Shown: positions 2,651-25,250 of the stretch, piece by piece
Layout of the letters: each line of letters opens with the position of its first letter
Position numbering within the stretch: position 1 is the stretch's first letter
Source: Cellulophaga sp. RHA19
GTDB taxonomy: Bacteria; Bacteroidota; Bacteroidia; Flavobacteriales; Flavobacteriaceae
Direction of reading: 5' to 3'
Assembly (NCBI RefSeq): GCF_002813425.1
Contig: NZ_PHUL01000001.1
Coordinates: 372,001-436,000, forward strand
DNA: 64,000 nt
Translations under genes and position numbers: made by a program
The notes under the pieces: generated by a model
Told to the model about the DNA's origin: nothing
The model's input: the letters and a program-made list of their open reading frames with translations, nothing else
The model's database searches: none

Positions 2651-2678
2651 GGTATAATAATGCTACTATTAGGTAAGA
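2651..2678 (+). promoter_or_regulatory. Operator 1 (direct repeat, 21 bp period) upstream of the GntP gene
   Basis: First half GGTATAATAATG at 2651-2662, 8 bp spacer, second half AGGTAAGA at 2671-2678. The layout matches the sites at 4074, 15190, 21799 and 25221. A Bacteroidota -7 element of the form TAnnTTTG (TATATTTG) lies at 2708-2715, about 30 bp downstream of the second half. The site would therefore abut the -33 region, a position suited to activation. Confidence 0.65.
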
Positions 2679-2742
2679 GTGCGATATCAAAAATCATTTC
2701 TTGCTATTATATTTGATCCATTAAAAAACAAACATCTTACTT

Positions 2743-4047
2743 ATGTCTGCCCTAATTATATTAATAATCTGCATTATTTTATTAATTGTAACTGTTACCG
2801 TTTTTAAAGTACACCCAATACCAGCGTTACTTGTTTTTGGACTCATATTGGGGTTAGCAACAGGAGAATCTGTTACCGTTGTAACCGAAAGCTTACTAAG
2901 CGGATTTGGCAACACATTAAAATGGATTGGTTTAATTATACTTTTTGGAGCTTTACTAGGAGAAATATTATCTAACACAGGCGGGTCTGACGTTATTGCC
3001 GATAGTATCATTGGTTTATTTGGCACCAAATACCTACCCTTAAGTATGGCTGTTATAGGTTTTTTAATAGGAATTCCTGTTTTTATGGACGTTGCCTACT
3101 TAACTTTACTACCAACATTACATGTTTTATCTAAAAAGTCTGGACACTCTATTTTAGTACTTGGCTTATCTTTAGCAATAAGTCTAACAGTTGCTCATGC
3201 ACTAATACCCCCTACTCCAGGACCACTAGCAGTTGCAGCAGCTTTTAACATTAATGTAGGCACAATTATTCCACTAAACGTTATAGTTGCTATTGCTGCA
3301 ATACTAGGAGGCTTAGCTTGGCTAAAATTTAATAAAAAAAACCTTCAAATAACTAACAAAATAGATAACAGCAAACTAAATCAAACTAAAAAAAAGGTTC
3401 TAACAGGCTATAAAAAAACACTCCCTTTTGCCGCATTATTAATTCCGTTACTTTTAATGTCTATTGGCACTATTTTCAAAGAAGAAAACCAATTAATATC
3501 GTTTATAAAAAATCCTATTTGGGCCTTACTAATTGGTATTTTATTTGCATTACCATTACTTGGAAAAAAGAATTTTTCAACCAAGCTAAACAATTACTTT
3601 AATACTGCAGGGTCTAAAACCGCTATTGTTATTTTAATTACAGGAACTGGTGGTGCATTTGGTCAAGTTATAAAAGATACTGGTATTGTTAGCGACCTAT
3701 TTACAAGCACAGACTCAATTTCATCTATGGGTATAATTGTGCCATTTGCACTAAGCATGCTGTTTACAACAGTTACAGGATCTATAACTGTTTCTTTAAT
3801 AACAACAGCATCTATTGTTGCCCCATTAATTAGTAACGGTACTTTAGAACCTGCCTTTACTACAGCTGCAATTTGCGCAGGCTCTTTAGGAATTATTCAC
3901 GTAAACAGCAGCTTCTTTTGGTTGTTTAAAGAAATACACCAAGTATCTGTACCAAAACTCCTAAAGTCATTTAGCTTACTTACTGCTATTGTTTCTTTAT
4001 CTGGCGGATTAATGGTATTTATTGTCTACATACTTACTAGAAAATAA
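2743..4047 (+). CDS. GntP family sugar-acid:H+ symporter
   Basis: 434 residues, strongly hydrophobic, with about 12 membrane segments. Family blocks include VHPIPALLVFGLILGLATG near the N-terminus, GALLGEILSNTGGSDVIAD, GIPVFMDVAYLTLLP and LIPPTPGPLAVAAAFNINVG, all typical of GntP (gluconate permease and relatives). Known members import aldonic acids such as gluconate, or hydroxy acids, with protons. In this locus a sugar acid such as 3,6-anhydrogalactonate, or galactonate, would be a logical substrate, but that is inference. The gene follows the AraC gene after 118 bp holding operator 1, and is followed by operator 2 and a RhaT family gene, so each transporter appears to have its own regulated promoter. 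Confidence 0.88.
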   Translation: MSALIILIICIILLIVTVTVFKVHPIPALLVFGLILGLATGESVTVVTESLLSGFGNTLKWIGLIILFGALLGEILSNTGGSDVIADSIIGLFGTKYLPLSMAVIGFLIGIPVFMDVAYLTLLPTLHVLSKKSGHSILVLGLSLAISLTVAHALIPPTPGPLAVAAAFNINVGTIIPLNVIVAIAAILGGLAWLKFNKKNLQITNKIDNSKLNQTKKKVLTGYKKTLPFAALLIPLLLMSIGTIFKEENQLISFIKNPIWALLIGILFALPLLGKKNFSTKLNNYFNTAGSKTAIVILITGTGGAFGQVIKDTGIVSDLFTSTDSISSMGIIVPFALSMLFTTVTGSITVSLITTASIVAPLISNGTLEPAFTTAAICAGSLGIIHVNSSFFWLFKEIHQVSVPKLLKSFSLLTAIVSLSGGLMVFIVYILTRK

Positions 4048-4073
4048 AACAATTGTCAATTTTGTGCTTATAG

Positions 4074-4103
4074 GGTAAAATAATGCTGCTCTAAGGTAAA
4101 ATT
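4074..4103 (+). promoter_or_regulatory. Operator 2 (direct repeat, 21 bp period) upstream of the RhaT-type gene
   Basis: First half GGTAAAATAATG at 4074-4085, spacer of 8, second half AGGTAAAATT at 4094-4103. This is the cleanest copy: GGTAAAAT recurs exactly 21 bp apart, two helical turns, as AraC proteins bind. A weak -7-like TACGTTTA lies at 4114-4121. The site stands 108 bp before the transporter start and probably drives the long operon that continues to 15140. Confidence 0.7.
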
Positions 4104-4210
4104 CTTCAATATGTACGTTTAATATTAGGGTTTCTTTGTGTAACAAGGATGAAGAACCTATTACCAACACACACTTCATCCAAATCAACTAACACAAAAA
4201 CCACATAATA

Positions 4211-5221
4211 ATGGACACATACACGCTAGCAATTATACTTGTTGTATTTGCAAGTTTTTTCCAAGGAACCTTTGGATTAGGAATGAAATATATAGCACCA
4301 CTAAAATGGGAAGCTTGGTGGTTAGTACAAGCATTTATTGCTATGATTTTTGTTCCTGTAATTTGGGCATTAATTGTAATTCCTGATTTATTTAGTGTAT
4401 TGGCCAATGTAGACGCTAGCACTTTTTGGACAGCCTCTCTTTATGGTTTTTTATGGGGAATTGGAGGTATACTTTTTGGAGTAAGTGTAGAAAAAACAGG
4501 AATCTCTATAACCTATGGTATTGTAATGGGATTAGCAGCATCTATGGGATGTATTATTCCTCTATTTCAAATTGACGGCGCTTTCTCGCAACCATCTTTC
4601 CCAATTATATTAGTAGGCGTAGCTCTGCTATTAGTAGGCGTAGGTATTACCGCAATAGCTGGCGTTAAAAGAGATAAACTTAAAGGCAATAATGAGTCAT
4701 CTACCAATAAATCTATAAAACTAGGCGTATTAATTGCTGTAGCTTCTGGCGTATTATCGGCTTTTTTAAACGTAGGTTTTTCTAATGCTGCTCCTGTTGC
4801 AAAAATAGCAGTAGACAGTTATGGTACTAGTGCACAAAATGCAAGTTTAGCGTCTTGGGTAGTTGTTTTAATTGGAGCATTTGCTATGAACGGCGGTTAT
4901 GCTATTTACAGACTTGCTAAAAATAAAACTTGGAATTCTTTTAAAGTAAAAAATAGCAAAAAAGCATATATGTGGGCTATTGCCACAGGTATATTTTGGT
5001 TTGCCGCTCTTGGTGTTTATGGCCAAGGAGCTGCTTTAATGGGAGATTTAGGTCCTGTTATTGGATGGCCAATTTTATTAGGTTTAGCATTAATAATAAG
5101 TAACATTTGGGCATATAGATCTGGAGAATGGAATAATGCCAAAGGCCCTTTTAAAATTCTTTTAGGCGGACTAGCTGTACTTATTTCTGCTATTTGCATT
5201 TTAGGATACGCAAACTACTAA
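4211..5221 (+). CDS. RhaT family sugar:H+ symporter
   Basis: 336 residues with about 10 membrane helices. The opening FASFFQGTFGLGMKYIAPLKWEAWWLVQAF and the block GFLWGIGGILFGVSVEKTGISITYGIVMGLAASMG are characteristic of the L-rhamnose/proton symporter RhaT family in the drug/metabolite transporter superfamily. Homologues in other loci carry different deoxy- or modified sugars. Here no rhamnose enzymes are nearby, and the next genes process 3,6-anhydro-D-galactose, so uptake of that neutral sugar across the inner membrane is the likely role (inference). The next gene starts 75 bp downstream. That gap holds a weak hairpin (AAAGC/GCTTT) with a T-run around 5253-5271, perhaps an attenuator. Confidence 0.88.
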   Translation: MDTYTLAIILVVFASFFQGTFGLGMKYIAPLKWEAWWLVQAFIAMIFVPVIWALIVIPDLFSVLANVDASTFWTASLYGFLWGIGGILFGVSVEKTGISITYGIVMGLAASMGCIIPLFQIDGAFSQPSFPIILVGVALLLVGVGITAIAGVKRDKLKGNNESSTNKSIKLGVLIAVASGVLSAFLNVGFSNAAPVAKIAVDSYGTSAQNASLASWVVVLIGAFAMNGGYAIYRLAKNKTWNSFKVKNSKKAYMWAIATGIFWFAALGVYGQGAALMGDLGPVIGWPILLGLALIISNIWAYRSGEWNNAKGPFKILLGGLAVLISAICILGYANY

Positions 5222-5295
5222 AACAAACCAATTAACTATAAAACACAGTTCTAAAGCCGTTCTGCTTTTTTACTTGAAAAAAAATCCAATTTGGT

Positions 5296-6462
5296 ATGAA
5301 AATTAAACACATAGAACCTTACGTAATCAGCCACGAGTTGGATACTCCTTTTTACTTTTCTCAATGGCAATACAATACAAGAAAAATTTGTCTTGTAAAA
5401 ATAACCTTAGAAGATGGCACCTATGGCTGGGGAGAGGGTTATGGCCCAGCAGGTGTAATTAAAGCCGGTATAGAATTTTTTACTCCTTTTCTTATAGGAA
5501 AACAAGCCATTGAAAACGAAGTTTTATGGCAAGAAATGTACCGAAGATCTATGGATTATGCCCGAAGCGGAAGCTTACAAGCCGCATTAAGTGCAATAGA
5601 TGTAGCGCTGTGGGATATAAAAGGTAAACTACTAAATAAATCTGTAGCCGTTTTATTGGGCGGATTAAAAAACCCTACCATACAACCTTATGCAACTGGA
5701 CTATATTTTACAAGAGTAGACAATTTAGAAAAAGTACTTACTGAAGAAGCAAAGCTTTATAAATCTCAAGGTTTTAAAGCCATTAAAATGAAAGTAGGCT
5801 TAAGCATTGAGGAAGACGTAAAATATGTAGCAGCCATACGCAAAGCAATTGGTAATGATGTTAGACTAATGATTGACGCAAACCACGCATATAGCTACCA
5901 AGAAGCAATAGAACTTTGCCGAAGAGTAGAAAAATACAATATCTCATGGTTTGAAGAACCAGTTTCTCCTGAAGATTATAACGGCTACAGAAGATTAAGA
6001 GAAAACACTACAATACCAATTGCTGGTGGCGAGTGTGAGTACCTAAAATTTGGATTTAAAAGGCTACTAGAAAAAGAGTGTGTAGATATTGCACAACCAG
6101 ACATTTGTGCCTCTGGAGGACTGACTGAAGCAAAAAGAATTGCAACCCTAGCCCAAGCATTTAACAAAGATATTGTACCACACTCTTGGGGAACTTGGAT
6201 TGCCATTAGCGCTGCTGCACATTTTGTAGGCAATCTAGATAAAAATCCGGGAAGAATGTATAACGACCTACCAACTATGGAATTAGACAGGTCTGAAAAT
6301 GCATTGAGAGATATAGTTACAAAGTGTGACCTTACCGTAAACAACGGACTATTGTGCGTTCCTAACACCCCTGGTTTAGGCGTAGATGTAAATATGGATG
6401 AATTAGAAAAATACCTTGATAAAGAAATACATCAAAATGAAAAAAGATTTAAAATTCGGTAA
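5296..6462 (+). CDS. dauB: 3,6-anhydro-D-galactonate cycloisomerase-like enolase superfamily enzyme
   Basis: 388 residues, no signal peptide, cytoplasmic. It belongs to the mandelate racemase/muconate lactonising group of the enolase superfamily. Visible active-site parts are a KxK motif (K164-M-K166), metal ligands D194 (in MIDANHAY), E220 or E221 (in FEEP) and E246 (in GGECEY), and H296 in PHSWG, a galactonate dehydratase-like histidine. The partners narrow the function: an aldehyde dehydrogenase, a 2-keto-3-deoxygalactonate kinase and its aldolase follow directly. The known carrageenan route uses a cycloisomerase that turns 3,6-anhydro-D-galactonate into 2-keto-3-deoxygalactonate. Galactonate dehydratase is the main alternative, and would feed the same kinase. 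The next gene starts 26 bp inside this one. Confidence 0.8.
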   Translation: MKIKHIEPYVISHELDTPFYFSQWQYNTRKICLVKITLEDGTYGWGEGYGPAGVIKAGIEFFTPFLIGKQAIENEVLWQEMYRRSMDYARSGSLQAALSAIDVALWDIKGKLLNKSVAVLLGGLKNPTIQPYATGLYFTRVDNLEKVLTEEAKLYKSQGFKAIKMKVGLSIEEDVKYVAAIRKAIGNDVRLMIDANHAYSYQEAIELCRRVEKYNISWFEEPVSPEDYNGYRRLRENTTIPIAGGECEYLKFGFKRLLEKECVDIAQPDICASGGLTEAKRIATLAQAFNKDIVPHSWGTWIAISAAAHFVGNLDKNPGRMYNDLPTMELDRSENALRDIVTKCDLTVNNGLLCVPNTPGLGVDVNMDELEKYLDKEIHQNEKRFKIR

Positions 6463-7885
6463 TAAAAAACTATATATAAATGGCGAATTAAAAGATGCTT
6501 CTAACGGAGCGTCTTTTGATGTAATATGTCCTGCCGATGAAAAACCAGTAGCTAATATTGCTTGGGCTAGTAAAGAAGACACAAAATTAGCGCTACAGAC
6601 TGCCGAAGAAGGATTTAAACACTGGTCTAAACTACCATTAAAAGAACGTTTAAACTGGATAGATAAGCTAAGAAATAAAATACTAGAAAAAAGCGACTTA
6701 CTACGCAGTAGTATTATGCATGAAATGGGGAAAACTTGGGAAGGAAGCGAGGAAGACCTTACAAGTATCACCAATTCTCTAGAATATTACTCTAAGGAAA
6801 TTACTAAACGCCATGACATAAAAATTGAAGATAAAGAAGGTTCTCACGAACATAAAATTGTTTCACAACCTCTTGGTGTTGCTGTAGCCTTTTTGGCTTA
6901 TAATTTTCCTTTACTAAATTTAGGTTTTAAACTAGGTCCTGCGTTAGCTGCCGGTTGCAGCATTATACTTAAACCATCTGAATTTTCACCTTTATCTGCA
7001 TACATTATAGGAGAAATTTGTCACGAGATTAATTTTCCTAAAGGTGTTGTTACTGTTATTTGTGGTGATGTATCTGATGTTGGCATTCCGCTATGCGAAA
7101 GTAAAATTCCACGTTTAATAACAATGATTGGCTCTACAGAAACTGCACAAAAATTAATAGAGCAAAGCAGTAAAACTTCTATAAAAAGATACAGTATGGA
7201 GTGCGGTGGCAATGCTCCTTTTATTGTTTTTGACGATGCAGATTTAGAACTTGCAATAAATATTGGTGCCGCATTAAAAGTTGGCAATACAGGACAAATA
7301 TGTGTTGCTCCAAACAGGTTTTACATTCACACTTCTGTTATCAAAAAATTTACAGAAGGCATTGTAAACAAATTTAAAAGTACAACCATTGGTTTTGGCA
7401 AAGAAAATAAACCACAAATGGGCCCCTTAACCAACAAGCAATCTGTAAACAAAGTACAAAGCATAGTTACAGAAGCTGTTAACCAAGGGGGAGAAATACA
7501 TTATGGCGGCAAAGCAATAGACCAACCCGGTTATTATTTTGAGCCTACAGTAATAACATTTAAAGACTCTAACCCAGAAATTTTACAACATGAAATTTTT
7601 GGTCCTGTAGCACTAATTGTTCCATTTACAACAAAAGAAGAAGTTATAGAATTAGCAAACAATACAGATGCCGGTTTGGCATCTTACGTATTCTCTAAAA
7701 ACGATGAAACTCTTGCTTATTTTTCTAGCAAATTAGAGTTTGGAGAAGTACAACTTAACGGTGTAAAATACGATATTTATTTACCTCACGGCGGTGTAAA
7801 AAACAGCGGAATTGGTGTAGACTGCTCTACATATGCTCTAGATGATTATCTAATTAAAAAAAGAGTTTCTAAAGCACTAAACTAA
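6437..7885 (+). CDS. dauA: 3,6-anhydro-D-galactose dehydrogenase-like aldehyde dehydrogenase
   Basis: About 482 residues from the ATG at 6437; an upstream in-frame ATG at 6416 would add 7 residues. NAD(P)-dependent aldehyde dehydrogenase superfamily: the catalytic Cys is C289 in GNTGQICVAPNRF, the general base E255 in MECGGNAPF, and the cofactor region includes ILKPSEFSPL. The protein is cytoplasmic with no signal. Given its neighbours it should oxidise 3,6-anhydro-D-galactose to the anhydro-acid used by the preceding cycloisomerase. It resembles succinate-semialdehyde dehydrogenases in general build, so a generic annotation would say that. Its start overlaps the previous gene and its stop overlaps the next start (TAATG), which implies translational coupling. 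Confidence 0.8.
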   Translation: MKKDLKFGNKKLYINGELKDASNGASFDVICPADEKPVANIAWASKEDTKLALQTAEEGFKHWSKLPLKERLNWIDKLRNKILEKSDLLRSSIMHEMGKTWEGSEEDLTSITNSLEYYSKEITKRHDIKIEDKEGSHEHKIVSQPLGVAVAFLAYNFPLLNLGFKLGPALAAGCSIILKPSEFSPLSAYIIGEICHEINFPKGVVTVICGDVSDVGIPLCESKIPRLITMIGSTETAQKLIEQSSKTSIKRYSMECGGNAPFIVFDDADLELAINIGAALKVGNTGQICVAPNRFYIHTSVIKKFTEGIVNKFKSTTIGFGKENKPQMGPLTNKQSVNKVQSIVTEAVNQGGEIHYGGKAIDQPGYYFEPTVITFKDSNPEILQHEIFGPVALIVPFTTKEEVIELANNTDAGLASYVFSKNDETLAYFSSKLEFGEVQLNGVKYDIYLPHGGVKNSGIGVDCSTYALDDYLIKKRVSKALN

Positions 7886-8832
7886 TGGCAGCACCAGATT
7901 ATTTTATTAGTTGTGATTGGGGAACATCTAACTTTAGGTTACGTGTTGTAGAAACAGCTACGCTTAGTATTGTTGCTGAACATAAAACAGACTGTGGAAT
8001 AAAATCTCTCTATGAAAAATTCTTAAAACAAAGAGATAAAGAACAAACACAGTTTTTTGCAGACTACCTTAAAACACAAATTTTACTTTTACCCAAAAAG
8101 TATCAAAACTATATTATAATTGCGGCAGGTATGGCCTCTTCTAACATTGGTTTATTTGAGCTTAATTATGCCGACTTTCCTTTAAATACAAATGGCAAAA
8201 ATTTAATTTGGAAACACCTAGTTTTTAACAACAACTTAGAGGTATTGTTAATCTCTGGAGCCAAAACAAATTTTGGGATGATGCGTGGTGAAGAAGTACA
8301 AGCAGTAGGGTTAGAACAACAACTAAACCCTTATAAAAAAGGAATTCTGTTATTACCTGGTACGCATAGCAAACACCTAACATATGATAACGGAATTTAT
8401 ACGCATCTAAAAAATTATATGACAGGTGAGTTATTTGAAGTGATCTCTAAAAAAAGCATCTTAGCAAACTCAGTTAATCTAAACTCTTCAACTTTAATAA
8501 TAACTTCTTTTTTAGAAGGTGTACAACTTGGGCTAAAAGGACAATTAAGCGCTAGTTTATTTTCAATTAGAGCAAAGGATTTACTTCAAACATCAACCAA
8601 AGAAGAAAACTTTTATTTTTTAAGCGGACTCCTTATTGGTGATGAAATTAGCTATCTAAAAAATAATGAAGAAAACATATTTTTAGTAGCACCCGATCCT
8701 GTTTTTAGTTTATATAAAATTGCGTTACAACAAATTATAACACAAGATCAATTAATTCTTTTTAATGATAAAACATTAGAAAATGCACTTTTAATTGGCC
8801 AAAAGAAAATACTACTTCAATATGAAAACTAA
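7885..8832 (+). CDS. dgoK: 2-dehydro-3-deoxygalactonokinase
   Basis: 315 residues. DgoK family kinase of the ASKHA fold. The N-terminus FISCDWGTSNFRLRVVE is the phosphate-1 loop, MASSNIGLFE corresponds to the family's GMIGS-like block, and MMRGEEVQAVG and LLPGTHSKHL are hallmark DgoK segments. It should phosphorylate 2-keto-3-deoxy-D-galactonate to the 6-phospho compound in the cytoplasm. This corresponds to DauC of the anhydrogalactose route. The start codon shares the final A of the preceding stop codon, and the aldolase gene begins 11 bp before this gene ends, so the four catabolic genes are tightly coupled. Confidence 0.92.
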   Translation: MAAPDYFISCDWGTSNFRLRVVETATLSIVAEHKTDCGIKSLYEKFLKQRDKEQTQFFADYLKTQILLLPKKYQNYIIIAAGMASSNIGLFELNYADFPLNTNGKNLIWKHLVFNNNLEVLLISGAKTNFGMMRGEEVQAVGLEQQLNPYKKGILLLPGTHSKHLTYDNGIYTHLKNYMTGELFEVISKKSILANSVNLNSSTLIITSFLEGVQLGLKGQLSASLFSIRAKDLLQTSTKEENFYFLSGLLIGDEISYLKNNEENIFLVAPDPVFSLYKIALQQIITQDQLILFNDKTLENALLIGQKKILLQYEN

Positions 8833-9466
8833 ACATCCTTTTAATTGGAAATCACATAGTAAAGCACCAATTGTAGGTATTGTACGAGGATTACCCTTAG
8901 ATACTGTTATTAGCATTGCAAACGCATATGTTTTGGCTGGTTTATCTACTATAGAAATTACTATGAACACCATTGGAGCTTCAGAAATAATTACAGAAAT
9001 AAGAAACAAGTTCCCAAATTTAAATGTTGGTGCCGGTACAGTTTGCTCTGTAGAAGATTATAATAATGCTATTGCAGCAGGTGCGCAATTTATTGTAACC
9101 CCTGTAATTAATGAAGAAGTTATAAAAAAAGCTGTAGCAGATGACGTTCCTATTTTTCCGGGCGCTTATTCTCCATCAGAAATCTACAAAGCTTGGTCTT
9201 TGGGAGCTTCTGCCGTAAAGATTTTCCCTGCAACGCAGCTAGGTCCTACTTTTGTTAAAGATATACTAGCACCTTTAAATAATATAAAAGTACTACCTAC
9301 TGGTGGTGTTACTAAAGAAAATATTGCTTCGTTTTTTGCCGCAGGTGCTACTGGTGTTGGTATGGGAAGCTCCTTATTAAACAAAGAACTTATTAAACAA
9401 AACGATTTTAATGGTTTGGCAGAACATTTTAAAAACATTAAAGCAGAGATTAAAGCATATTTATAA
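8822..9466 (+). CDS. dgoA: 2-dehydro-3-deoxy-6-phosphogalactonate aldolase
   Basis: About 214 residues from the ATG at 8822; the frame is open further upstream only through a TTG start, which I reject. Class I KDPG/KDPGal aldolase family: GIVRGLPLDTVISIANA, the catalytic-base region STIEITMNT, VGAGTVCS, the Schiff-base lysine in AVKIFPATQLGP, and VLPTGGV. It cleaves KDPGal to pyruvate and glyceraldehyde-3-phosphate, which closes the anhydrogalactose pathway (the DauD step). It overlaps the kinase gene by 11 bp. The LPLD after the arginine and the pairing with a galactonate kinase favour KDPGal over KDPG as substrate. Confidence 0.9.
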   Translation: MKTKHPFNWKSHSKAPIVGIVRGLPLDTVISIANAYVLAGLSTIEITMNTIGASEIITEIRNKFPNLNVGAGTVCSVEDYNNAIAAGAQFIVTPVINEEVIKKAVADDVPIFPGAYSPSEIYKAWSLGASAVKIFPATQLGPTFVKDILAPLNNIKVLPTGGVTKENIASFFAAGATGVGMGSSLLNKELIKQNDFNGLAEHFKNIKAEIKAYL

Positions 9467-9489
9467 TTGAGAACTATAAAAACCAAACT

Positions 9490-11547
9490 ATGAAAATTAT
9501 TGAAAAAATACTCTTAACCTGTGCTATCCTATTGGTACACTCCAGTTTTTTACACGCTCAAAAAGCAATAACACTAGAAGATAGCAACGTAAAAATTACC
9601 GTAGATGGTACTACAGGTAACTTTACTGTAATTGAAAAAACTTCTGGTCAAATATGGAATCCAGATCCTTGGGAAAATGCTGCTGGTTTACTAACACTTA
9701 CAGATAGTAAAAAAACTAAGCAAACAGTAAATATATCTAACAGTAAAAAAATAGAACTTACCAAAAAAGATAAAAATACGGTTGTAATAACATTTACCAA
9801 TCCTGCTTTTAGAGATGGCTCTATAGCTAAAGATGTAACACTACAAACTAAATTAAGTTTAGATCCTAAAACATCTAAACTAAGAGCAGAAATTATAAGC
9901 TACAAATCTAGCAATCATAAACTAATAAATCTAAGGTATCCATCTCGCTACTTTAGCTTAAAAACAGATAAAGATATAGGTGCCGCTGTCATACCACAAA
10001 AGCAAGGCATCATCTGTCCGTCTTATATTTTCCCTATGAATGGTGGTCGTTTTTGTAAATGGGATGATACCACATATAATAATAAATCTATAGGTACTTT
10101 AGAGCTTTTTAATAACGGTACAGGCTTATCTATGCCATGGTGGGGAACCTACAATAAAAAATCTGCAGTAGTTGGTATTATTGACAAAGACGTAAGACCA
10201 AAATTATTTTTTAACATTAATAATAACGGTCAGTACTTATTTAATGCAAAGGGTAAAATGTCTAACTACCAAAGAGTACAGTTTTTAGATCCCGTATGGG
10301 ACATATCAACACCTAACCAAACAATTGGAGGCATAACTTACTCTTTTATTCCTAAGGGAGATTATGTAGATATGGCTAAAGAATACAGAAAAGAAGCTAA
10401 AAAACGTGGTCATTTTGTTTCTTTAAGAGATAAACTAGCAAGAAATCCAGATGTAGATAAACTGCCAGGCTCTATCTACTTTGGTATTTATGGTGGCTAC
10501 CCTCATTATGTAAATATGCCAGGTATGGCTTTTACTTTTGATGATTTAAAAAATATGATTACTACAATACACGACACTCTAAAAGTAGACAATGCTTTTA
10601 TACACGCCTGGGGAACTTTCTCTAACTACGTACCTAACAACTGGCCAATAAGTGAAGAACTTGGTGGTGTTAAAAAACTTAAAGAAGCGGTAGATTTAAC
10701 TAACAAATATGGTTACTTATACTCTTCATACCACTCCTACTCTGCTCTATTAGAGAACGATCCAGATTTTTCTACCGAATTTATGTGGAAAGATGCTAAC
10801 GGTAAATTACAAGAAACTAATAGCAGATGGGCACGTGTAGATAGTAAATACCAATTAGGTTTGGCAAAAAAACACATCACTGAAGAAATAAAAGCATTAA
10901 ACTTAAAAGCAGATATTACAGATATTACGTTTGCTGCATATAGAGAAAAAGGAAAAGAAGGGCGTATTGCTCTTGCCAAATACATAGACTCTTTAAACCT
11001 TGTAAACGGAACAGAACACGGCCAAGAAGCTTGGATTCCTTATTTTGATATGTTTGAAGGCTTAACTTATCTTGGCAATCCTCCACTTTCTACTATTTCT
11101 AAAAAGGCTCCACTTTTTAATCTTGTATACCATGATGCTATTGCTGTTTTTGGAAAAATACAAGATCCAGATAACGAGGTTACTAACAATGGTGATTTTA
11201 GAATAAAGTCATTACGCAGCATACTTTTTGGTAGAGGAACAACTATTTTCTTTGCTCCGTATGAGTTTGACGGTATGTCTAGTATGATTAAAATGGCTAA
11301 CAAATTAGTAGCTCCAATACACAAAGAAACATTTTATGCCGAATTAGAAAGTCACGAATACTTAAGTAAAGATTTTAAAGTGCAACGTACAAAATTTTCT
11401 AATGGAACTACTGTAATTGTTAACGTAGGTAATGTAGACCAAAAAATAGAAAACGGACAAACAATTCCTGGTTATGGCTATTATGTTACCAGAGAAAACG
11501 GAGAAATTAACAAAGGAAGCTACCAAGTTAGTTTGTTAGAAAACTAA
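9490..11547 (+). CDS. GH129-like exo-glycosidase, candidate 3,6-anhydro-D-galactosidase
   Basis: 685 residues with a type I signal peptide (ILLTCAILLVHSSFLHAQ), so periplasmic. After an N-terminal beta-rich part (about 25-300) comes a barrel-like region with SIYFGIYGGYPHY, FIHAWGTFSNYVP, ADITDITFAAY and VNGTEHGQEAWIPYFD. The overall pattern recalls GH129 and related families (alpha-N-acetylgalactosaminidase fold). GH129 members in carrageenan loci of marine Flavobacteriia release 3,6-anhydro-D-galactose from the non-reducing end. I assign the family from memory of its pattern and position, not from a search; the acids in ITDITF and NGTEHGQE are candidate catalytic residues. It lies 23 bp after the aldolase gene and 25 bp before a GH2 gene in the same operon. 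Confidence 0.65.
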   Translation: MKIIEKILLTCAILLVHSSFLHAQKAITLEDSNVKITVDGTTGNFTVIEKTSGQIWNPDPWENAAGLLTLTDSKKTKQTVNISNSKKIELTKKDKNTVVITFTNPAFRDGSIAKDVTLQTKLSLDPKTSKLRAEIISYKSSNHKLINLRYPSRYFSLKTDKDIGAAVIPQKQGIICPSYIFPMNGGRFCKWDDTTYNNKSIGTLELFNNGTGLSMPWWGTYNKKSAVVGIIDKDVRPKLFFNINNNGQYLFNAKGKMSNYQRVQFLDPVWDISTPNQTIGGITYSFIPKGDYVDMAKEYRKEAKKRGHFVSLRDKLARNPDVDKLPGSIYFGIYGGYPHYVNMPGMAFTFDDLKNMITTIHDTLKVDNAFIHAWGTFSNYVPNNWPISEELGGVKKLKEAVDLTNKYGYLYSSYHSYSALLENDPDFSTEFMWKDANGKLQETNSRWARVDSKYQLGLAKKHITEEIKALNLKADITDITFAAYREKGKEGRIALAKYIDSLNLVNGTEHGQEAWIPYFDMFEGLTYLGNPPLSTISKKAPLFNLVYHDAIAVFGKIQDPDNEVTNNGDFRIKSLRSILFGRGTTIFFAPYEFDGMSSMIKMANKLVAPIHKETFYAELESHEYLSKDFKVQRTKFSNGTTVIVNVGNVDQKIENGQTIPGYGYYVTRENGEINKGSYQVSLLEN

Positions 11548-11554
11548 TTACTAA

Positions 11555-14803
<3,249 letters not shown>

Positions 14804-14819
14804 CATTTATAAAAAAAAT

Positions 14820-15189: not shown

Positions 15190-15218
15190 GTTAAAATAAT
15201 GTTACAACAAGGTAATTT
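15190..15218 (+). promoter_or_regulatory. Operator 3 (direct repeat, 21 bp period) upstream of sulfatase/GH127
   Basis: First half GTTAAAATAATG at 15190-15201, spacer of 8, second half AGGTAATTT at 15210-15218. The site lies 75 bp before the sulfatase ATG at 15293 and starts a new transcription unit with the GH127 gene. Confidence 0.65.
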
Positions 15219-15292
15219 GCTTTAATCATTTTACCTTTTTTTTCTTTTAATTTGTTGTAATTCACTCATTACTAATAGTGAAACACATACAA

Positions 15293-16747
15293 ATGAAGAA
15301 AAGTATTATTTATCTATTATTAACTTTTATTGCTGTACACCTACAAGCGCAAAAACAACCAAACATTGTTTTCTTATTTTCTGATGATGCTGGTTATGCA
15401 GACTTTGGTTTTCAAGGCAGTAAAATAATGAAAACTCCAAACCTTGATAAGCTAGCAAAGTCTGGAGCTAAATTTACCCAAGGCTATGTTACAGATGCTA
15501 CCTGCGGACCATCTAGGGCCGGCTTAATTACAGGTAAATACCAACAACGTTTTGGATACGAGGAAATTAACGTTCCTGGCTATATGAGTGCCAATTCTAA
15601 ATTTTTGGCAGATGACATGGGCTTACCATTAGACCAGTTAACAATTGCAGATTACCTAAAAAAATTAGGGTACAAAACTGCTATGTATGGCAAATGGCAT
15701 TTAGGCGATGCAGACCGTTACCACCCAACTAAGAGAGGGTTTGATGAGTTTTATGGTTTTAGAGGTGGTGCGCGTAGTTACTTTGGCTACAATGATGTTT
15801 CTAAAGCCAATTTAGACAACAGAATGGAAAGAGGTTTTGGCAACTACCAAGAGCCAACCAAATACGTAACCGATGCTTTGGCAAACGAAGCTGTTTCGTT
15901 TATTCAGAAAAACAAAGACAATCCTTTTTTTATATACTTAGCTTTTAATGCTGTACATACACCAATGCAAGCAACAGCAGAAGATTTAGAAAAATTTCCT
16001 AATTTATATGGCAAACGAAAAGAGCTAGCTGCTATGACATTAGCACTTGACAGAGCTTGTGGCAAAGTAATAAACAAATTAAAAGAACTTGGTTTAGATA
16101 AAAACACAATTATAGTTTTCTCTAACGACAATGGCGGACCAACAGATAAAAATGCATCTTTAAACTTACCATTAAGTGGCACAAAATCTAACCATTTAGA
16201 AGGCGGAATAAGAGTGCCTTATTTAATAAGTTGGCCAAAACAAATAAAGTCTAAAACGGTATACAATTACCCAGTTAGCACTCTAGACTTACTACCTACT
16301 TTTTACGCAGCAGGAGGTGGAAAAACTGAAGACTTAAAAGACATAGATGGCGTAAATCTTTTGCCATATATAAATGGTGAAAATAATGCTAGACCGCATA
16401 ATACCTTATTTTGGAAAAAAGAAGTAAGACTTGCCTATAGAGAAGGCGACTGGAAATTAATACGTTTTGCAGACAGACCAGCAGAGTTATATGATTTATC
16501 TACAGACACTGCAGAACTAAATAATATTGCTTTTAAACATCCAGAAAAAGTAAAATCTATGTTTAAAAAAATGTTTGAATGGGAGTCTACATTACAACGA
16601 CCACTTTGGATGCTAAAAAGAAGTTTTGAAAATTACGACATTGACCGTATGGATAGGTACAGAACTCCCGAAAAAGTAAAAAAAGAGATGCAACAGTACA
16701 ACTCTCCAATAAAAGAGAAACGTCAATTTGAAAAAAACAACAAATAA
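15293..16747 (+). CDS. S1 family sulfatase (arylsulfatase A-like), signal peptide
   Basis: About 484 residues from the ATG at 15293; a GTG 15 bp upstream is the alternative. Signal peptide [17 protein letters not shown], so periplasmic. Type I formylglycine sulfatase: metal ligands in FLFSDDAGY, maturation motif [11 protein letters not shown] with C71 to be converted to formylglycine, GKWHLG, and FSNDNGG for the distal metal pair. In this setting it should remove ester sulfate from carrageenan oligosaccharides. The build fits the arylsulfatase A-like subfamilies, possibly S1_19, whose members include carrageenan exo-4-sulfatases; the subfamily is a guess. It is followed by GH127 after 28 bp. 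No formylglycine-generating enzyme is in the window. Confidence 0.9.
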
Positions 16748-16775
16748 CAAACTAACTTATACTCAATTTTAAAAT

Positions 16776-18881
16776 ATGAAACAATTTACACTTATAGCCT
16801 TTAGCGCTCTGGTTCTTTCCTCTTGCGGACAGGATAAAAAAGCAAAGATTCCGGAAGCAACTGCAAATACAGAAAGTAAAGATCTAGCTCTAAACTTAGA
16901 TCCTAACGCAGGTATTATAAATAATGCCAATAGTCCGCATGTTGCTTTTAAAAGTATAGATATGGGAGATTGCCAATGGACAGAAGGTTTTTGGGCAGAT
17001 AAATTTAAAATTGCCGAAACAAAAATGGTTCCCTATATGCGAAGTTTACTAACTGGTGATACTGGCCACGCATTAAACAACTTTAAAATTGCTGCTGGCT
17101 TAAAAGAAGGTGAACACAAAGGTATGCATTGGCACGATGGTGACTTTTATAAGTTTATGGAAGCCACAATGTATGTTTATGCACAAAATAAAGACGAAGC
17201 TTTATTAAAAGAAATAGATAGTTATATTGACATCATTGGAAAAGCACAAGAAAAAGATGGCTACCTACAGACTCAAATTCAGTTAAAAGATGATCGTTCT
17301 AGGTATGAAAACCGAAAGTTTCATGAAATGTACAATTCTGGACACTTATTAACTAGTGCTTGTATTCATTACCGAATTACGGGTCAGACTAACTTTTTAG
17401 ATATAGCTGTTAAACACGCAGATTTGTTACACTCCTTATTTATGACAGATGATGAGCGATATGGTCGTTTTGGTTTTAACCAAACACAAATTATGGGCTT
17501 AGTAGAATTGTACAGAACAACAAAAGACAAACGCTATTTAGAGTTAGCAGAGAAATTTATTAACAACAGAGGATCTTATAAAGTTGCAGAAACACCAGAA
17601 ACAAAAGGATATCCTATTGGAGATATGGTGCAAGAGCGCACACCTTTACGTAAATCTGATGAAGCAGTTGGCCACGCGGTTTTAGCCTTGTATTATTATG
17701 CCGGAGCTGCAGATGTTTATGCAGAAACAGGAGAACAAGCCTTAATTGATGCTTTAGATAAATTATGGATGAATGTTGCACTTAAAAAAATGTACGTAAC
17801 CGGTGCTGTTGGTCAAACTCACTACGGAGCATCAACTAATAGAGATAAGATTGAAGAAGGTTTTATAGACGAGTACATGATGCCAAATATGACTGCATAT
17901 AATGAGACTTGCGCCAATGTGTGCAACTCTATGTTTAGCTATCGTATGCTTGGCGTACACGGTGAATCTAAATATGCAGATATTATGGAAACCGTATTAT
18001 ACAACAGTGCATTATCTGGTATTAATTTAGAAGGAGACAGGTATTACTACGCTAATCCACTTAGAGTAATTCACGGCTCTAGAGACTATGACAAAATGAA
18101 CACAGAGTTCCCAACAAGACAAGCTTATTTAGACTGTTTTTGTTGTCCTCCAAACCTAGTTCGTACAATTGCAAAAGTATCTGGCTGGGCATATAGCAAA
18201 TCTAAAAATGGTATTGCTATAAACCTTTATGGTGGTAACACATTAAAAACAACACTTGCTGATGGCTCTAAGTTAGAGTTGAAACAAGAAACAGCTTACC
18301 CTTGGAATGGAGATGTAAAAATAACAATGCAAGCCTGTAAAAGCACTCCTTTTGATGTGCTTGTTAGAATTCCGGATTGGGCAGAAAACACAAAAGTACT
18401 AGTAAATGGCAAAGAGATTAACGCTACTGTAAAAGCTGGTGAGTTTACTACTATTACCCGACAATGGAAAAAAGATGATGTAATACGTGTTGCAATGCCA
18501 TTAGATATAAATTTTGTAGAAGGTCATGAACGTATTGAAGAAGTACGTAACCAAGTAGCCATAAAAAGAGGTCCTCTTATATATTGTGTAGAATCTGCAG
18601 ATTTACCTAAAGACACTAGTATTTTAGATGTATTTATTAAAGGTGATGCGTCCCAACTAAAATCTGAGTACAGGCCAGACTTTTTAGGTGGAGTATCTGC
18701 AATAACAGGAAACGTTTTACTACGTAAGGATGCTAGTAAGGCAGATAAAATGTATCACAAAGTAAAAAAACCAGAGTGGAACACTTACAATACAACCTTT
18801 GTTCCTTATTATGCTTGGTCTAACAGAAACAATGAAAAAGAAAGTGAAATGACTGTGTTTTTACCAGTTGTTTGGGAATAA
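16776..18881 (+). CDS. GH127 lipoprotein, candidate 3,6-anhydro-D-galactosidase
   Basis: 701 residues, lipoprotein signal ending LSSCGQ. GH127 fold with the zinc-thiolate active site fully present: E361 (acid/base) in KIEEGF, E377 and C379 in NETCANVC, and C456-C457 in CFCCPPN. The spacings 16, 2 and 79 equal those between E322, E338, C340 and C417 of the Bifidobacterium enzyme HypBA1, a beta-L-arabinofuranosidase whose C417 is the nucleophile. In marine carrageenan loci GH127 members instead act as 3,6-anhydro-D-galactosidases, and the dau-type genes upstream argue for that activity here. There are no arabinose genes nearby. It is co-transcribed with the preceding sulfatase and ends at a strong terminator. 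Confidence 0.88.
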   Translation: MKQFTLIAFSALVLSSCGQDKKAKIPEATANTESKDLALNLDPNAGIINNANSPHVAFKSIDMGDCQWTEGFWADKFKIAETKMVPYMRSLLTGDTGHALNNFKIAAGLKEGEHKGMHWHDGDFYKFMEATMYVYAQNKDEALLKEIDSYIDIIGKAQEKDGYLQTQIQLKDDRSRYENRKFHEMYNSGHLLTSACIHYRITGQTNFLDIAVKHADLLHSLFMTDDERYGRFGFNQTQIMGLVELYRTTKDKRYLELAEKFINNRGSYKVAETPETKGYPIGDMVQERTPLRKSDEAVGHAVLALYYYAGAADVYAETGEQALIDALDKLWMNVALKKMYVTGAVGQTHYGASTNRDKIEEGFIDEYMMPNMTAYNETCANVCNSMFSYRMLGVHGESKYADIMETVLYNSALSGINLEGDRYYYANPLRVIHGSRDYDKMNTEFPTRQAYLDCFCCPPNLVRTIAKVSGWAYSKSKNGIAINLYGGNTLKTTLADGSKLELKQETAYPWNGDVKITMQACKSTPFDVLVRIPDWAENTKVLVNGKEINATVKAGEFTTITRQWKKDDVIRVAMPLDINFVEGHERIEEVRNQVAIKRGPLIYCVESADLPKDTSILDVFIKGDASQLKSEYRPDFLGGVSAITGNVLLRKDASKADKMYHKVKKPEWNTYNTTFVPYYAWSNRNNEKESEMTVFLPVVWE

Positions 18882-18901: not shown

Positions 18902-18938
18902 AAAAAAGGGGATAAGTTGTACAACTTATCCCCTTTTT
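18902..18938. terminator. Bidirectional rho-independent terminator
   Basis: A perfect 13 bp stem, GGGGATAAGTTGT paired with ACAACTTATCCCC (18908-18933), is flanked by an A-run and a T-run. It lies between the converging GH127 and molybdo-hydroxylase genes and can serve both strands. Confidence 0.93.
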
Positions 18939-18961
18939 ATATTTTAATTAAATATAGGTAA

Positions 18962-21142: not shown

Positions 21143-21144
21143 AA

Positions 21145-21603: not shown

Positions 21604-21798
21604 AAATCTTAATATTTAGTTTTGTAAAGATGTCTATGTTTTAAATTTACACAAAAATAAGTAGAACAATGCAGCGTAAAGACTGTATTAACACTTTATT
21701 TTAACACAGATAAAAGATACTAATTTATAGCAACAAAGCTTTTATTACCTCTAAAAACTAAACATACACCCTAAAGCACTTACAAAGAACATAAAAAA

Positions 21799-21826
21799 GG
21801 TAAAATAGTGTATGCTATAGATAAAT
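21799..21826 (+). promoter_or_regulatory. Operator 4 (direct repeat, 21 bp period) upstream of paired sulfatases
   Basis: First half GGTAAAATAGTG at 21799-21810, spacer of 8, second half AGATAAAT at 21819-21826, the weakest second half of the five. It lies 72 bp before the sulfatase start at 21898, in the divergent gap with the molybdo-hydroxylase operon. Confidence 0.55.
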
Positions 21827-21897
21827 TATAAGCATATTAAATTGCTACTTTTAAGTTCTTTTGATAGTATCAAATATTAACTTTTCTGAAGCAAATA

Positions 21898-23550
21898 ATG
21901 AAATACGCACCAATAATACTTCTACTTTTTATTATTAGTAGTTGTCAATCTCAAAAAGAAAACAAAAAGCAAGTAAAGCAAAAGCCCAACATTTTATTTA
22001 TTGCTATTGATGATTTACGCCCAGAACTTGGTACGTATGGCTCTAAAATTGCACAAAGTCCAAACATAGATGCCTTGGCAAATACAGGCTTACAATTTAA
22101 CAATGCCTATTGTCAAGAAGCTATTTGTAGTCCGTCTAGAGCTAGTTTAATGACAGGAGCCAGACCAGAAAGCATTAATGTAATAGAAAACTTTACCTAT
22201 TTTAGAGATGCCAATCCAGATATAGTAACACTACCCCAACAACTATGGGCTAATGGATATGAGACAGTGCATACTGGTAAAATTTTTCACGGAAAATATA
22301 ATGATCCTAAGTTATCATGGAGCAGAAAACCAGTACCGCATAGCGTATTGAGCGGTGAAAAAAAGCCAAAATTTGGCTTTAAATTACCCGAAAATATAAA
22401 AATGCAAAAAGAAAATAGCGCAGCTATGATTGCTAAATATGGCAAAAATGCATTGCGTAATGGACTAGGAAAAGGTCCTGCTTATGAATTTGCAGACTAC
22501 CCTGATAATACATATGAAGACGGTTATAACACAGACTTAGCAATTGCTACATTAAAAGATATGCTGCGTAAAAACCCAGACAAACCATTTTTTTTAGGTT
22601 TAGGAATGAAAAAGCCACATTTAGATTGGCAAGCTCCAAAAAAATATTGGGATTTATACAATGAAGATGATATAAAGTTAGCTGCACAAAAAAATGCTCC
22701 AAAAGACGGTGCAACTATGGGTTTACACGCATCATTTGAATTAAGAGCAAGAGCCGATATTCCTAAAAAAGGTGGTATTAGTGACGAGCAAGCTATAAAA
22801 TTAAAGCATGCATATTTGGCTTGCGTTAGTTACATAGATGCACAAATTGGACGTATGTTAAAAGCGTTAGATGAATCTGGACAAAGAGATAATACCATTA
22901 TTATTTTATGGAGTGATCACGGTTGGCATTTAGGAGATATGGGCATTTGGGGAAAAGCAACTAATTATGAAATTGCCACTAGGGTACCTTTAATTATCTC
23001 TGCTCCTAGTATGTCTAAAAATATTAGAGGTACAAAAACAGATGCCCTAGTAGAACTTGTAGATATGTACCCTACTCTTTGCGACTTGGTAGATGTTGCA
23101 GTACCTAACACTGTAGAAGGACAGAGTTTTAAACCTCTTTTAACCAACCCTAAACAAGACTGGAAAACAGCCGTTTTTAGTCAGTTTCCTACGCCCGCAT
23201 TAAGAGAATGGGCTGCAAACCCGCTGTCTAAAGGAATGAAAGAAACTTCTTTTGGTCCTTTAATAGAAGAAGTAGAGGCTAAAATTAAAAAACAGCAAGG
23301 AGATAAATGGAATAGAGACCTATTTGAAAATAAATTAATGGGCTACTCTATGCGCACAAAAAACTACAGATTTATAGTATGGAAAGATTATACTAACAAA
23401 AATGCTGAGCCTATTTTTATAGAATTATACGATCATATAAAAGACCCAACAGAAACTATAAATATTGCGAAAGAAAACCCTGAACTAGTAACTAAGTTAT
23501 TAGCTCAATTTAATAAAGGTTGGAAAGGAAACTTAGCACAACTTAACTAA
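21898..23550 (+). CDS. S1_7-like sulfatase (iduronate-2-sulfatase type), lipoprotein
   Basis: 550 residues with a lipoprotein signal ending ISSCQS. Sulfatase motifs: FIAIDDLRPELG, AICSPSRASLMTG with C77 as the formylglycine site, TGKIFH, and LWSDHGWHLGDMGIWGK. The opening and the DHGWHLG block match the iduronate-2-sulfatase group (SulfAtlas S1_7), which in marine loci includes carrageenan sulfatases. Sulfate position is not readable from the sequence. It has a close paralogue at 32243. It is followed after 8 bp by a second, different sulfatase, and preceded by operator 4. Confidence 0.9.
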   Translation: MKYAPIILLLFIISSCQSQKENKKQVKQKPNILFIAIDDLRPELGTYGSKIAQSPNIDALANTGLQFNNAYCQEAICSPSRASLMTGARPESINVIENFTYFRDANPDIVTLPQQLWANGYETVHTGKIFHGKYNDPKLSWSRKPVPHSVLSGEKKPKFGFKLPENIKMQKENSAAMIAKYGKNALRNGLGKGPAYEFADYPDNTYEDGYNTDLAIATLKDMLRKNPDKPFFLGLGMKKPHLDWQAPKKYWDLYNEDDIKLAAQKNAPKDGATMGLHASFELRARADIPKKGGISDEQAIKLKHAYLACVSYIDAQIGRMLKALDESGQRDNTIIILWSDHGWHLGDMGIWGKATNYEIATRVPLIISAPSMSKNIRGTKTDALVELVDMYPTLCDLVDVAVPNTVEGQSFKPLLTNPKQDWKTAVFSQFPTPALREWAANPLSKGMKETSFGPLIEEVEAKIKKQQGDKWNRDLFENKLMGYSMRTKNYRFIVWKDYTNKNAEPIFIELYDHIKDPTETINIAKENPELVTKLLAQFNKGWKGNLAQLN

Positions 23551-23558
23551 TCTTAATT

Positions 23559-25043
23559 ATGATTTTACTTAAAAACTCTAAAACTATTTTTTTTGCAGCA
23601 TCATTGTTGGTATTAAGCTGTACTAATAAACCAAAAAAAGTAGCGCAAATAACTCCAAAAGTTGACACAAACACAAAGCAACCCAATATTTTACTTGTGC
23701 TTTGTGATGATTTAGGCTATTCTGATGTTGGTTTTAATGGCAGTACAGATATTAAAACTCCTGAGTTAGATAAATTAGCTAGTAATGGCACAATGTTTAC
23801 CTCGGCTTATGTTGCACATCCGTTTTGTGGCCCAAGTAGAGCAGCATTGTTAACAGGTAGGTATCCGCATACAATTGGCTCACAGTTTAATTTACCTGCT
23901 AACGGAGAATCTTTGGGCAAAGGTATTTCTACTAACGAGCAATTTATAGCAAAAACACTACAAGAATCTGGCTATTACACAGGAGCTATTGGAAAATGGC
24001 ATTTAGGAGCAACACAAGAGTTTCATCCCAACCAAAGAGGTTTTACAGATTTTTATGGTTTTTTAGGTGGAGGACATAACTACTTTCCTGAAGAATACCG
24101 TCCTAAATATGAAAAACAAAAGAAGGCCAACAAAAAAATAATTAGAGATTACATACTGCCTTTAGAACACAATGGCAAAGAAGTTAAAGAAACAGAATAT
24201 TTAACCGATGCCTTTTCTAGAGAAGCTTCTCGTTTTATTAAAGAGGCTTCAAATAAAGAGAAACCCTTCTTTTTATATTTAGCCTACAACGCACCACACG
24301 TACCGCTTGAAGCCAAAGAAGAAGATTTAAAAATATTTTTAGATATAAAAGACAAAGACAGAAAAACCTATGCGGCAATGGTCTATGCTGTAGACAGAGG
24401 AGTTGGCGCCATTGTAAACACATTAAAAGAAACAAATCAATTAAAAAATACTTTAATTATATTTTTAAGTGATAACGGCGGAAATACAGACCATGGCGCA
24501 ACCAATTTTCCATTACACGGAAGAAAAGGAGATACTTGGGAAGGTGGTTACCGCGTACCAATGTTTATGTATTGGCCAAAACACATTGCCAAAGGAGAAA
24601 AAAATAATTTTCCAATTAACAGTTTAGACCTCTACCCTACCTTGGCTCATTTAGCAAAAGCAAGGATTCCCAACAATAAAATTTTAGACGGAAAAAATGC
24701 TTGGGAATCTATATTAACTAATAAAGATCTACATAAAAAAGAAACTTTATTTGCTATGCGCCACAGAGAAGGCTACACAGATGTATCTGCAAGAAAAGAC
24801 GAATGGAAAGCACTAAAAGTTAGCAAACAACCTTGGAAGCTTTTTAAAATAACAGAAGACATTGGAGAAGAAAATGACTTAAGTACAAAACACCCAGACA
24901 TATTAAACTCACTTGTTAGTGATGCAGAAAAATGGAGTAAAACACATACAGAACCACTTTGGTTTGACCCTACGTATTTGCAAGAAATGTGGAAAGACAG
25001 CACAATGGCTACTTTTAATAACACATTTCTTATTCCTAAATAA
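23559..25043 (+). CDS. S1 family sulfatase (arylsulfatase A-like), lipoprotein
   Basis: 494 residues, lipoprotein signal ending VLSCTN. Motifs: LVLCDDLGYSDVGFNG, FCGPSRAALLTGRYPH with C90 as the formylglycine site, IGKWHLG, and FLSDNGGNTDHG. It is of the arylsulfatase A-like type, like the protein at 15293 but clearly divergent from it, and unlike its partner at 21898. Paired with that partner by 8 bp, it should remove a second sulfate position in the periplasm. The exact ester is not determinable. A terminator follows. Confidence 0.9.
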   Translation: MILLKNSKTIFFAASLLVLSCTNKPKKVAQITPKVDTNTKQPNILLVLCDDLGYSDVGFNGSTDIKTPELDKLASNGTMFTSAYVAHPFCGPSRAALLTGRYPHTIGSQFNLPANGESLGKGISTNEQFIAKTLQESGYYTGAIGKWHLGATQEFHPNQRGFTDFYGFLGGGHNYFPEEYRPKYEKQKKANKKIIRDYILPLEHNGKEVKETEYLTDAFSREASRFIKEASNKEKPFFLYLAYNAPHVPLEAKEEDLKIFLDIKDKDRKTYAAMVYAVDRGVGAIVNTLKETNQLKNTLIIFLSDNGGNTDHGATNFPLHGRKGDTWEGGYRVPMFMYWPKHIAKGEKNNFPINSLDLYPTLAHLAKARIPNNKILDGKNAWESILTNKDLHKKETLFAMRHREGYTDVSARKDEWKALKVSKQPWKLFKITEDIGEENDLSTKHPDILNSLVSDAEKWSKTHTEPLWFDPTYLQEMWKDSTMATFNNTFLIPK

Positions 25044-25070
25044 CTAGCTATTAAAATTACAATACACTAA

Positions 25071-25103
25071 ACTCCTTATTAAATACAGTAAGGAGTTTTT
25101 TTA
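25071..25103 (+). terminator. Rho-independent terminator after the sulfatase pair
   Basis: Stem ACTCCTTA (25071-25078) pairs with TAAGGAGT (25089-25096), followed by a T-run. It closes the sulfatase pair transcript. Confidence 0.85.
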
Positions 25104-25220
25104 CACCTCATCTTATTACCTACTAACAAGCCATTTAGACCTTAAAACAACTACAATCAAGGGTCATTTACCCCTATTTACATCTCCTTACCTTAAAATA
25201 AGCCCTTTTTAATCAAAAAG

Positions 25221-25250
25221 GTTAAAATAATGTTATCGAAAGGTAAAATT
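25221..25250 (+). promoter_or_regulatory. Operator 5 (direct repeat, 21 bp period) upstream of susCD
   Basis: First half GTTAAAATAATG at 25221-25232, spacer of 8, second half AGGTAAAATT at 25241-25250. A -7-like TACGTTTC lies at 25273-25280. The site is 223 bp upstream of the SusC ATG but only 40 bp before a 43-codon reading frame at 25290. Confidence 0.68.

Follow-up and report, generated by a model that had tools for sequence, protein, structure and literature searches.

Five direct-repeat sites in a carrageenan-type locus of Cellulophaga sp. RHA19 are candidate operators of the AraC-family regulator CgrA

A carrageenan-type polysaccharide utilisation locus (PUL) of Cellulophaga sp. RHA19 raises the question of which protein reads a direct repeat that recurs before its transcription units, and which genes would be controlled through it. 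The window, i.e., the whole stretch of 64,000 nucleotides that was analysed (C1:372001-436000), comes from a genome of 3.93 Mb, and the PUL within it spans genes 1740-30394. The sequence-only reading of this DNA had placed the repeat at 2651, 4074, 15190, 21799 and 25221 (sites A to E). All five were found, its stated starts falling on the G[GT] that lies two bases ahead of the TAAAAT core, and the gene list bore out that all of them precede PUL transcription units (Table 1). Our comparisons point to the five sites as the operators through which CgrA, the AraC-family activator that the gene at 1740 encodes, would act, a reading to which we give a probability of about 0.9.

The consensus of the sites is GGTAAAATARTG-N9-GGTAAAAT, in which a GGTAAAAT-like half-site is repeated directly at 21 bp and the first copy is lengthened to GGTAAAATARTG. 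The AraC-type spacing of 21 bp proposed earlier was thus recovered, with tandem half-sites lying near a promoter. The motif had been given as TAAAATAATG-N8-AGGTAA or a near variant; three sites match it exactly and one with 1 mismatch, while site 21799 has 2 mismatches and a core that is not exceptional. The eight spacer bases are not wholly unrelated, as had been assumed, since the first of them prefers a pyrimidine in the aligned sites. A feature that had been missed is the TTTG of the -7 box, which starts 61 bp past the site start in 5/5 sites. TTTG occurs with a frequency of 0.0075 per window position, and its presence in 5/5 sites at one common offset among 60 is expected about 1.4e-9 times. 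A TTTG at -33 is not conserved in the aligned sites. When the five sites are compared with one another, identity reaches 0.75 in the -7 box and 0.67 in the core, falls to 0.38 in the spacer and is only 0.32 and 0.31 in the flanks; as the flank values are near background, the five sites are not duplicated promoters.

The rarity of the repeat was assessed against 400 simulated windows (3rd-order Markov, both strands). The core with up to 1 mismatch occurs 4 times in the window vs a simulated mean of 0.025 (maximum 1), and with up to 2 mismatches 6 times vs 0.44 (maximum 4), the sixth being a minus-strand match within the GH127 gene. In the whole genome, the core at up to 1 mismatch gives 4 matches, all within the window. 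At two mismatches the genome has 11 matches, site 21799 among them, so the core of this site alone is unexceptional; its promoter geometry and the orthologous promoters speak for it. At up to 3 mismatches the core occurs 71 times, compared with 38 for the reversed pattern. A degenerate pattern combining operator and promoter found five places at 0 mismatches in the 3.93-Mb genome, which are sites A-E, none at 1-2 mismatches and six at 3, and the reversed pattern had 3 matches altogether. The absence of the repeat from the flanking core regions also held, as no other place in the window combines a core at up to 3 mismatches with TTTG at the right offset. With profile R1 (71 columns from 55 sites, sites A-E belonging to the training set), the five sites score 33.7-47.9 bits, and the next among the matches listed scores 19.4. 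The 55-site alignment was picked from TTTG-bearing matches, so its TTTG columns are no evidence; the evidence for the -7 box is the 5/5 offset and the held-out test described below. No full site beyond the five was found in this genome by the core, pattern and R1 profile scans, where the reach of the pattern scans is set by their mismatch settings and R1 scored 150 of about 3,000-12,400 first-look candidates per genome, so that weak sites may escape.

For the held-out test, a matrix of 32 columns was built from 38 Cellulophaga sites with the promoter excluded, and was run on 21 loci outside that genus (the count leaves out L123, L126 and L127, which are the same DNA as L105/L106 and L109). Among 39 matches above 12 bits, TTTG stands at the expected offset in 34, while other offsets average 0.22. 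In the five misses, the place of TTTG is taken by TTTA in two cases, TTAG in one and TATCTTGC in two. The last of these fits the TAnnTTGY box at -12 to -5, which the part of PMC9723704 covered here describes as another promoter class of Flavobacterium psychrophilum. TAnnTTGY instead of TAnnTTTG was seen in the same place after operators at L117:14126, L118:14121, L221, L227, L231 and L262. Orthologous genes retain their site across genera; in Pricia and in the Saprospirales locus, the site precedes the DauB gene rather than RhaT.

The distribution of the sites follows that of CgrA. In a set of 28 genomes, the best profile E-value is at most 2.6e-10 in the 18 with CgrA vs at least 0.00257 in ten genomes of the same genus without it, and no composite match at up to 1 mismatch was found in those ten. 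Among 397 genomes of the family, a sample of a larger group in which CgrA was called at E<=1e-100, 11 have CgrA and 11/11 carry 3-6 matches at up to 1 mismatch; these are genome-wide counts, and the position near carrageenan genes was checked for part of them. At least one match is present in 51 of the 386 genomes without CgrA (63 matches), three of which have three matches, and the reversed pattern gave 5 matches in all.

The regulator at 1740 has 294 aa and is 80% identical (residues 1-292) to the CgrA gene of genome G103, which was taken as Zobellia galactanivorans because its 693-aa PUL protein is identical over the full length to PDB 5opq, a 3,6-anhydro-D-galactosidase. The window locus holds the core genes of the CgrA regulon, dauA-D, dagA (GH127), S1 sulfatases and susCD (based on Pfam and on BLAST of Zobellia site-linked genes). 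In Z. galactanivorans, eight places match the operator-plus-promoter pattern at up to 2 mismatches. Seven precede GntP, RhaT, two GH127 units, a SusC/SusD pair at 4.15 Mb, a sulfatase at 0.21 Mb and an iota-carrageenase at 2.30 Mb, and the eighth, at 4.72 Mb, adjoins an AraC paralogue. The distant SusC/SusD and sulfatase genes are orthologues of site-bearing window genes, the first sulfatase after site D being 78% identical to the distant one. The sulfatase orthologue bears the site in 9/9 Zobellia genomes, and the distant SusC gene in 3/3 examined.

These positions agree with published induction. Table 1 of PMC5698469, which lists selected genes, gives significant induction by 3,6-anhydro-D-galactose for the units from ZGAL_181, 3147, 3150, 3157, 3158 and 3581, and sites lie upstream of 6/6 of these units, two of them distant, when sites are tied to locus tags by order, size and position. 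According to the same source, ZGAL_3151-3154, which belong to the same gene run and have no site of their own, and cgrA itself are not significantly induced by anhydrogalactose, and the cluster ZGAL_3629-3638 is induced by carrageenans and not by anhydrogalactose. No pattern match is listed between 4.15 and 4.72 Mb, the place expected for that cluster from its gene number. Anhydrogalactose was suggested as the CgrA effector in PMC5698469, and this is consistent with most of the site distribution. In the literature covered here, induction through CgrA is described for Z. galactanivorans only.

The C-terminal double helix-turn-helix of the 1740 regulator was identified by Pfam (PF12833, 76 bits), PDB profile matches, a predicted model and Foldseek. 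The model has a predicted local distance difference test (pLDDT) value of 79, strands at 16-96 and helix-turn-helix helices at 204-226 and 253-276. For the putative cupin-like ligand and dimer domain, Cupin_2 reaches 19.9 bits, below the cut-off of 27.2, and Foldseek matches the model to the sensor domains of RhaR, AraC and BgaR (E 5e-5 to 9e-4). No kinase match was found by Pfam in the 294-aa protein, which argues against a hybrid two-component system (HTCS).

The link between site and protein was analysed through helix 3, which lies in the first helix-turn-helix of the predicted structure. CgrA helix 3 differs by no more than 2 residues in 22 of 23 orthologues and was not located in the remaining one. 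At 41 paralogous araC loci, a CgrA-like operator of at least 10 bits is present in six vs 0.09 expected, three of the six being closely related Zobellia copies. On the divergent strand, a higher operator score goes with higher helix-3 identity (rho 0.59 for 41 loci, 0.53 for 22 cluster representatives) and not with overall identity (-0.56 and -0.61) or helix 6 identity (-0.14 and -0.31). The 51 site-bearing genomes without CgrA were sampled by taking the first site of the first 20, and for 12 of these 20 outside sites an araC gene lies at a distance of 46-209 bp, in 11 cases in divergent orientation; in a shorter and weaker control, an araC gene lies beside 0/25 loci of the RHA19 genome. Helix 3 of the 12 adjoining AraC proteins shares 8-12 of 13 residues with CgrA at 27-36% overall identity, compared with 5-12 of 13 (median 7) in the 41 paralogues. 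A matrix-free test for a 21-bp repeat near paralogue araC genes gave a modest signal, with mean matches on the divergent strand of 3.5-3.7 at spacing 21 vs 2.2-3.4 at other spacings. The association in both sets suggests that the half-site is tied to a CgrA-type helix. Together with co-occurrence and orthologous promoters, it favours the AraC gene at 1740 as the partner of the sites, as the sequence-only reading had supposed.

Several observations weigh against CgrA as the reader of the sites. Among paralogues sharing 11-12 of 13 helix-3 residues, a strong operator lies beside L056 and L059 and none beside L053 and L055, and the strongest operator is that of L042, with 9 of 13 residues. Eight of the 20 sampled outside sites have no araC gene within about 3 kb, and the Kriegella CgrA locus (L128) has no match above 9 bits within 10 kb. 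The Z. galactanivorans site at 4.72 Mb beside an AraC paralogue means that the motif is not exclusive to CgrA. The iota-carrageenase near 2.30 Mb, probably cgiA3, has a strong site, yet cgiA3 is not induced by anhydrogalactose (0.1) according to PMC5698469. Finally, CgrA and the PUL are co-inherited, so co-occurrence alone cannot separate CgrA from another PUL product.

Such a product could be the TPR protein encoded at 30493-32100 on the minus strand, which lies within the PUL and has a weak C-terminal LuxR-like match (GerE, E 0.0065, below the cut-off); another AraC or HTCS protein of the genome could also be proposed, as AraC paralogues elsewhere own similar operators. We regard a different regulator as unlikely. 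The 15-gene PUL of Z. galactanivorans, by the types listed in PMC5698469, is without such a TPR protein, yet its promoters carry sites, and in the parts of PMC3878776 and PMC3870299 covered here the binding sites of AraC-type regulators are described as direct repeats of 21 bp. The clustering of sites in CgrA genomes and the near invariance of helix 3 among CgrA orthologues also speak for CgrA.

The fixed distance from motif to -7 box would also be expected if the motif were only a variant of the core promoter, recognised as a sigma or upstream element. This seems very improbable, as the motif is concentrated at CgrA loci and beside related araC genes, and the ten same-genus genomes without CgrA, which presumably have the same primary sigma factor, lack matches of such strength. 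Least probable of all is an origin in duplicated promoter regions or chance similarity: short matches are frequent in DNA of 68% A+T, but the simulations, the near-background identity beyond the operator and -7 box, and the conservation across genera contradict it.

If CgrA reads the sites, two of its subunits would bind one face of the DNA at half-sites spaced by 21 bp, and GGTAAAATA would be recognised by the first helix-turn-helix. Each operator would be followed by a promoter of the sigma-A type whose -7 box keeps a constant phase. Flavobacterium data place the -7 box at -12 to -5; on this scale the proximal half-site would cover about -48 to -41 and the distal half-site about -69 to -62. 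Such positions would suit an activator in contact with RNA polymerase where no clear -33 box is present. Carrageenan fragments would yield intracellular 3,6-anhydro-D-galactose, and this sugar or a derivative of it may switch CgrA on; active CgrA would then turn on the transporters, the anhydrogalactose pathway, the sulfatases/GH127 and susCD.

We lean slightly towards a wider interpretation, in which a subgroup of AraC proteins across the Flavobacteriaceae uses a common grammar. A GRTAAWATARTR half-site would be repeated directly at 21 bp and keep a fixed distance to the -7 box, and the first recognition helix, similar to TPNAFCRYFKKRT, would decide which proteins belong to the subgroup. In Zobellia, a second AraC paralogue adjoins a similar operator upstream of metabolic genes (L198:6102 and L200:5279); judged by eye from their first residues, these may encode dihydrodipicolinate synthase-like, dehydrogenase and racemase-like proteins, perhaps for hydroxyproline breakdown. 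In three Zobellia genomes (L202:5127, L203:5322 and L211:4409), an operator-like site was found about 500 bp before another SusC gene, 28-38% identical to that of the window.

The expectation that the motif would find carrageenase genes elsewhere was confirmed in part. In the RHA19 genome, the GH82 gene at C1:2930682 (PDB iota-carrageenase, 1e-72) has a degenerate upstream site of 14.8 bits, a kind of match for which simulation expects 0.6 per whole genome. The matrix found no site before the three GH16 genes or a second GH82 gene of this genome, and a third GH82 gene, judged by the pattern scan only, gave no match. Upstream of 20 GH82 loci (three of which, L223-L225, are weak matches and may not be GH82), 9 scores are above 0, 2 between -6 and 0 and 9 below -7. 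One locus corresponds by position to the non-induced cgiA2 and scores -12.5; another corresponds to cgiA1 and scores -3.3, with a good first half-site and a poor second one. For GH16, 30 of 39 matches had a locus and two scored above 0 upstream; the kappa-carrageenase of Z. galactanivorans (PDB match) has a degenerate site of 14.4 and its Z. uliginosa counterpart, a candidate on that basis, one of 9.9. Where a carrageenase has a site at all, this is thus mostly a decayed one, the full site of the Z. galactanivorans iota-carrageenase being described above. Graded decay of the second half-site and -7 box would separate most carrageenases from the anhydrogalactose-driven core.

Three further features of carrageenase loci were recorded. 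The RHA19 iota-carrageenase gene has a palindrome, CTACATATGTAG (L229:1329-1340 = C1:2930510-2930521), placed after its degenerate operator and before its -7 box; the palindrome is similar in some related Cellulophaga, and a second regulator may bind there. The Z. galactanivorans iota-carrageenase with the full operator reads as two open pieces in the genome record (L194:5521-7503, minus strand) and may thus be interrupted. A same-genus genome without CgrA has an iota-carrageenase-like fragment with an operator-like site of 21.8 bits (L263, G010:C1:4659993), perhaps a relic of a lost system. Within the window PUL, a xanthine dehydrogenase-like pair is encoded in reverse orientation (18962-21603, minus strand), and the window scan found no operator before it.

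Table 1. Regulator, candidate operators, -7 boxes and downstream genes in the window (all positions are those of the window).
Feature	Position	Strand	Remarks
AraC-family regulator, CgrA orthologue	1740..2624	+	putative cupin-like N-terminus, two helix-turn-helix motifs; Pfam HTH_18 2.8e-21
Operator A (candidate)	2651..2680	+	half-sites 2651-2658 and 2672-2679; R1 36.9 bits
-7 box A, TATATTTG	2708..2715	+	
GntP-family permease, first gene downstream of site A	2743..4047	+	Pfam 2.4e-84
Operator B (candidate)	4074..4103	+	R1 47.9 bits
-7 box B, TTTCTTTG	4131..4138	+	
RhaT-like symporter, DauB-, DauA-, DauC- and DauD-like enzymes, GH129-like (DUF5696), GH2 and 106-aa protein downstream of site B	4211..15140	+	single operon predicted by gene spacing; Dau names based on Pfam and gene order
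Operator C (candidate)	15190..15219	+	R1 38.0 bits
-7 box C, TTAATTTG	15247..15254	+	
Sulfatase and GH127 downstream of site C	15293..18881	+	
Operator D (candidate)	21799..21828	+	weakest core, backed by orthologous promoters; R1 33.7 bits
-7 box D, TTCTTTTG	21856..21863	+	
Two sulfatases downstream of site D	21898..25043	+	
Operator E (candidate)	25221..25250	+	R1 45.7 bits
-7 box E, TTCTTTTG	25278..25285	+	
SusC/SusD pair (CgtA/CgtB-like) downstream of site E	25473..30394	+	

According to PMC5698469, deletion of CgrA (ZGAL_3159) in Z. galactanivorans causes a lag and reduced growth on carrageenan, and in the literature covered here CgrA is known as a gene whose loss slows this growth. In the main text of that paper, to which our search of it was confined, the word "operator" occurs 0 times and no CgrA binding site was found; a literature search, with most subscription journals and supplements outside its coverage, likewise found no published CgrA operator. 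An operator would identify the promoters under CgrA control; on this reading the susCD and sulfatase genes far from the Z. galactanivorans PUL appear to be direct targets, and the core driven by anhydrogalactose stands apart from most carrageenases. The candidate operators are short DNA pieces open to immediate testing. A grammar common to some AraC paralogues would be a route to mapping the regulons of other marine sugar regulators, and, if it is true, would let the binding sites and regulons of many unstudied ones be read from sequence.

The arrangement has a classical parallel in Escherichia coli AraC at araI1-araI2, where half-sites 21 bp apart lie next to the polymerase site and activation proceeds from tandem sites. 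The E. coli promoter is of the sigma-70 type, whereas the Cellulophaga sites are joined to a TAnnTTTG promoter. Direct repeats of 21 bp, about two helical turns, are assigned to AraC-type DNA-binding domains in Bacteroides HTCS (PMC3878776) and in RhaR (PMC3870299), in the parts of these papers covered here. Compared with the HTCS, in which a periplasmic sensor and histidine kinase are fused to the AraC domain, CgrA is a one-component regulator with no kinase match. The closest system is the CgrA regulon of Z. galactanivorans as described in the main text of PMC5698469, with which the window shares an orthologous regulator (80%), orthologous pathway genes and distant members marked by the operator; susCD and the sulfatase are distant in Z. 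galactanivorans, whereas both are inside the locus in the window. The GGTAAAATARTG sequence and its rigid link to the -7 box were not found in the covered parts of PMC3878776 and PMC3870299 and are described here. The 21-bp direct-repeat architecture of AraC-type regulators is thus known, and what the present locus would add to it is a candidate for the operator of CgrA.

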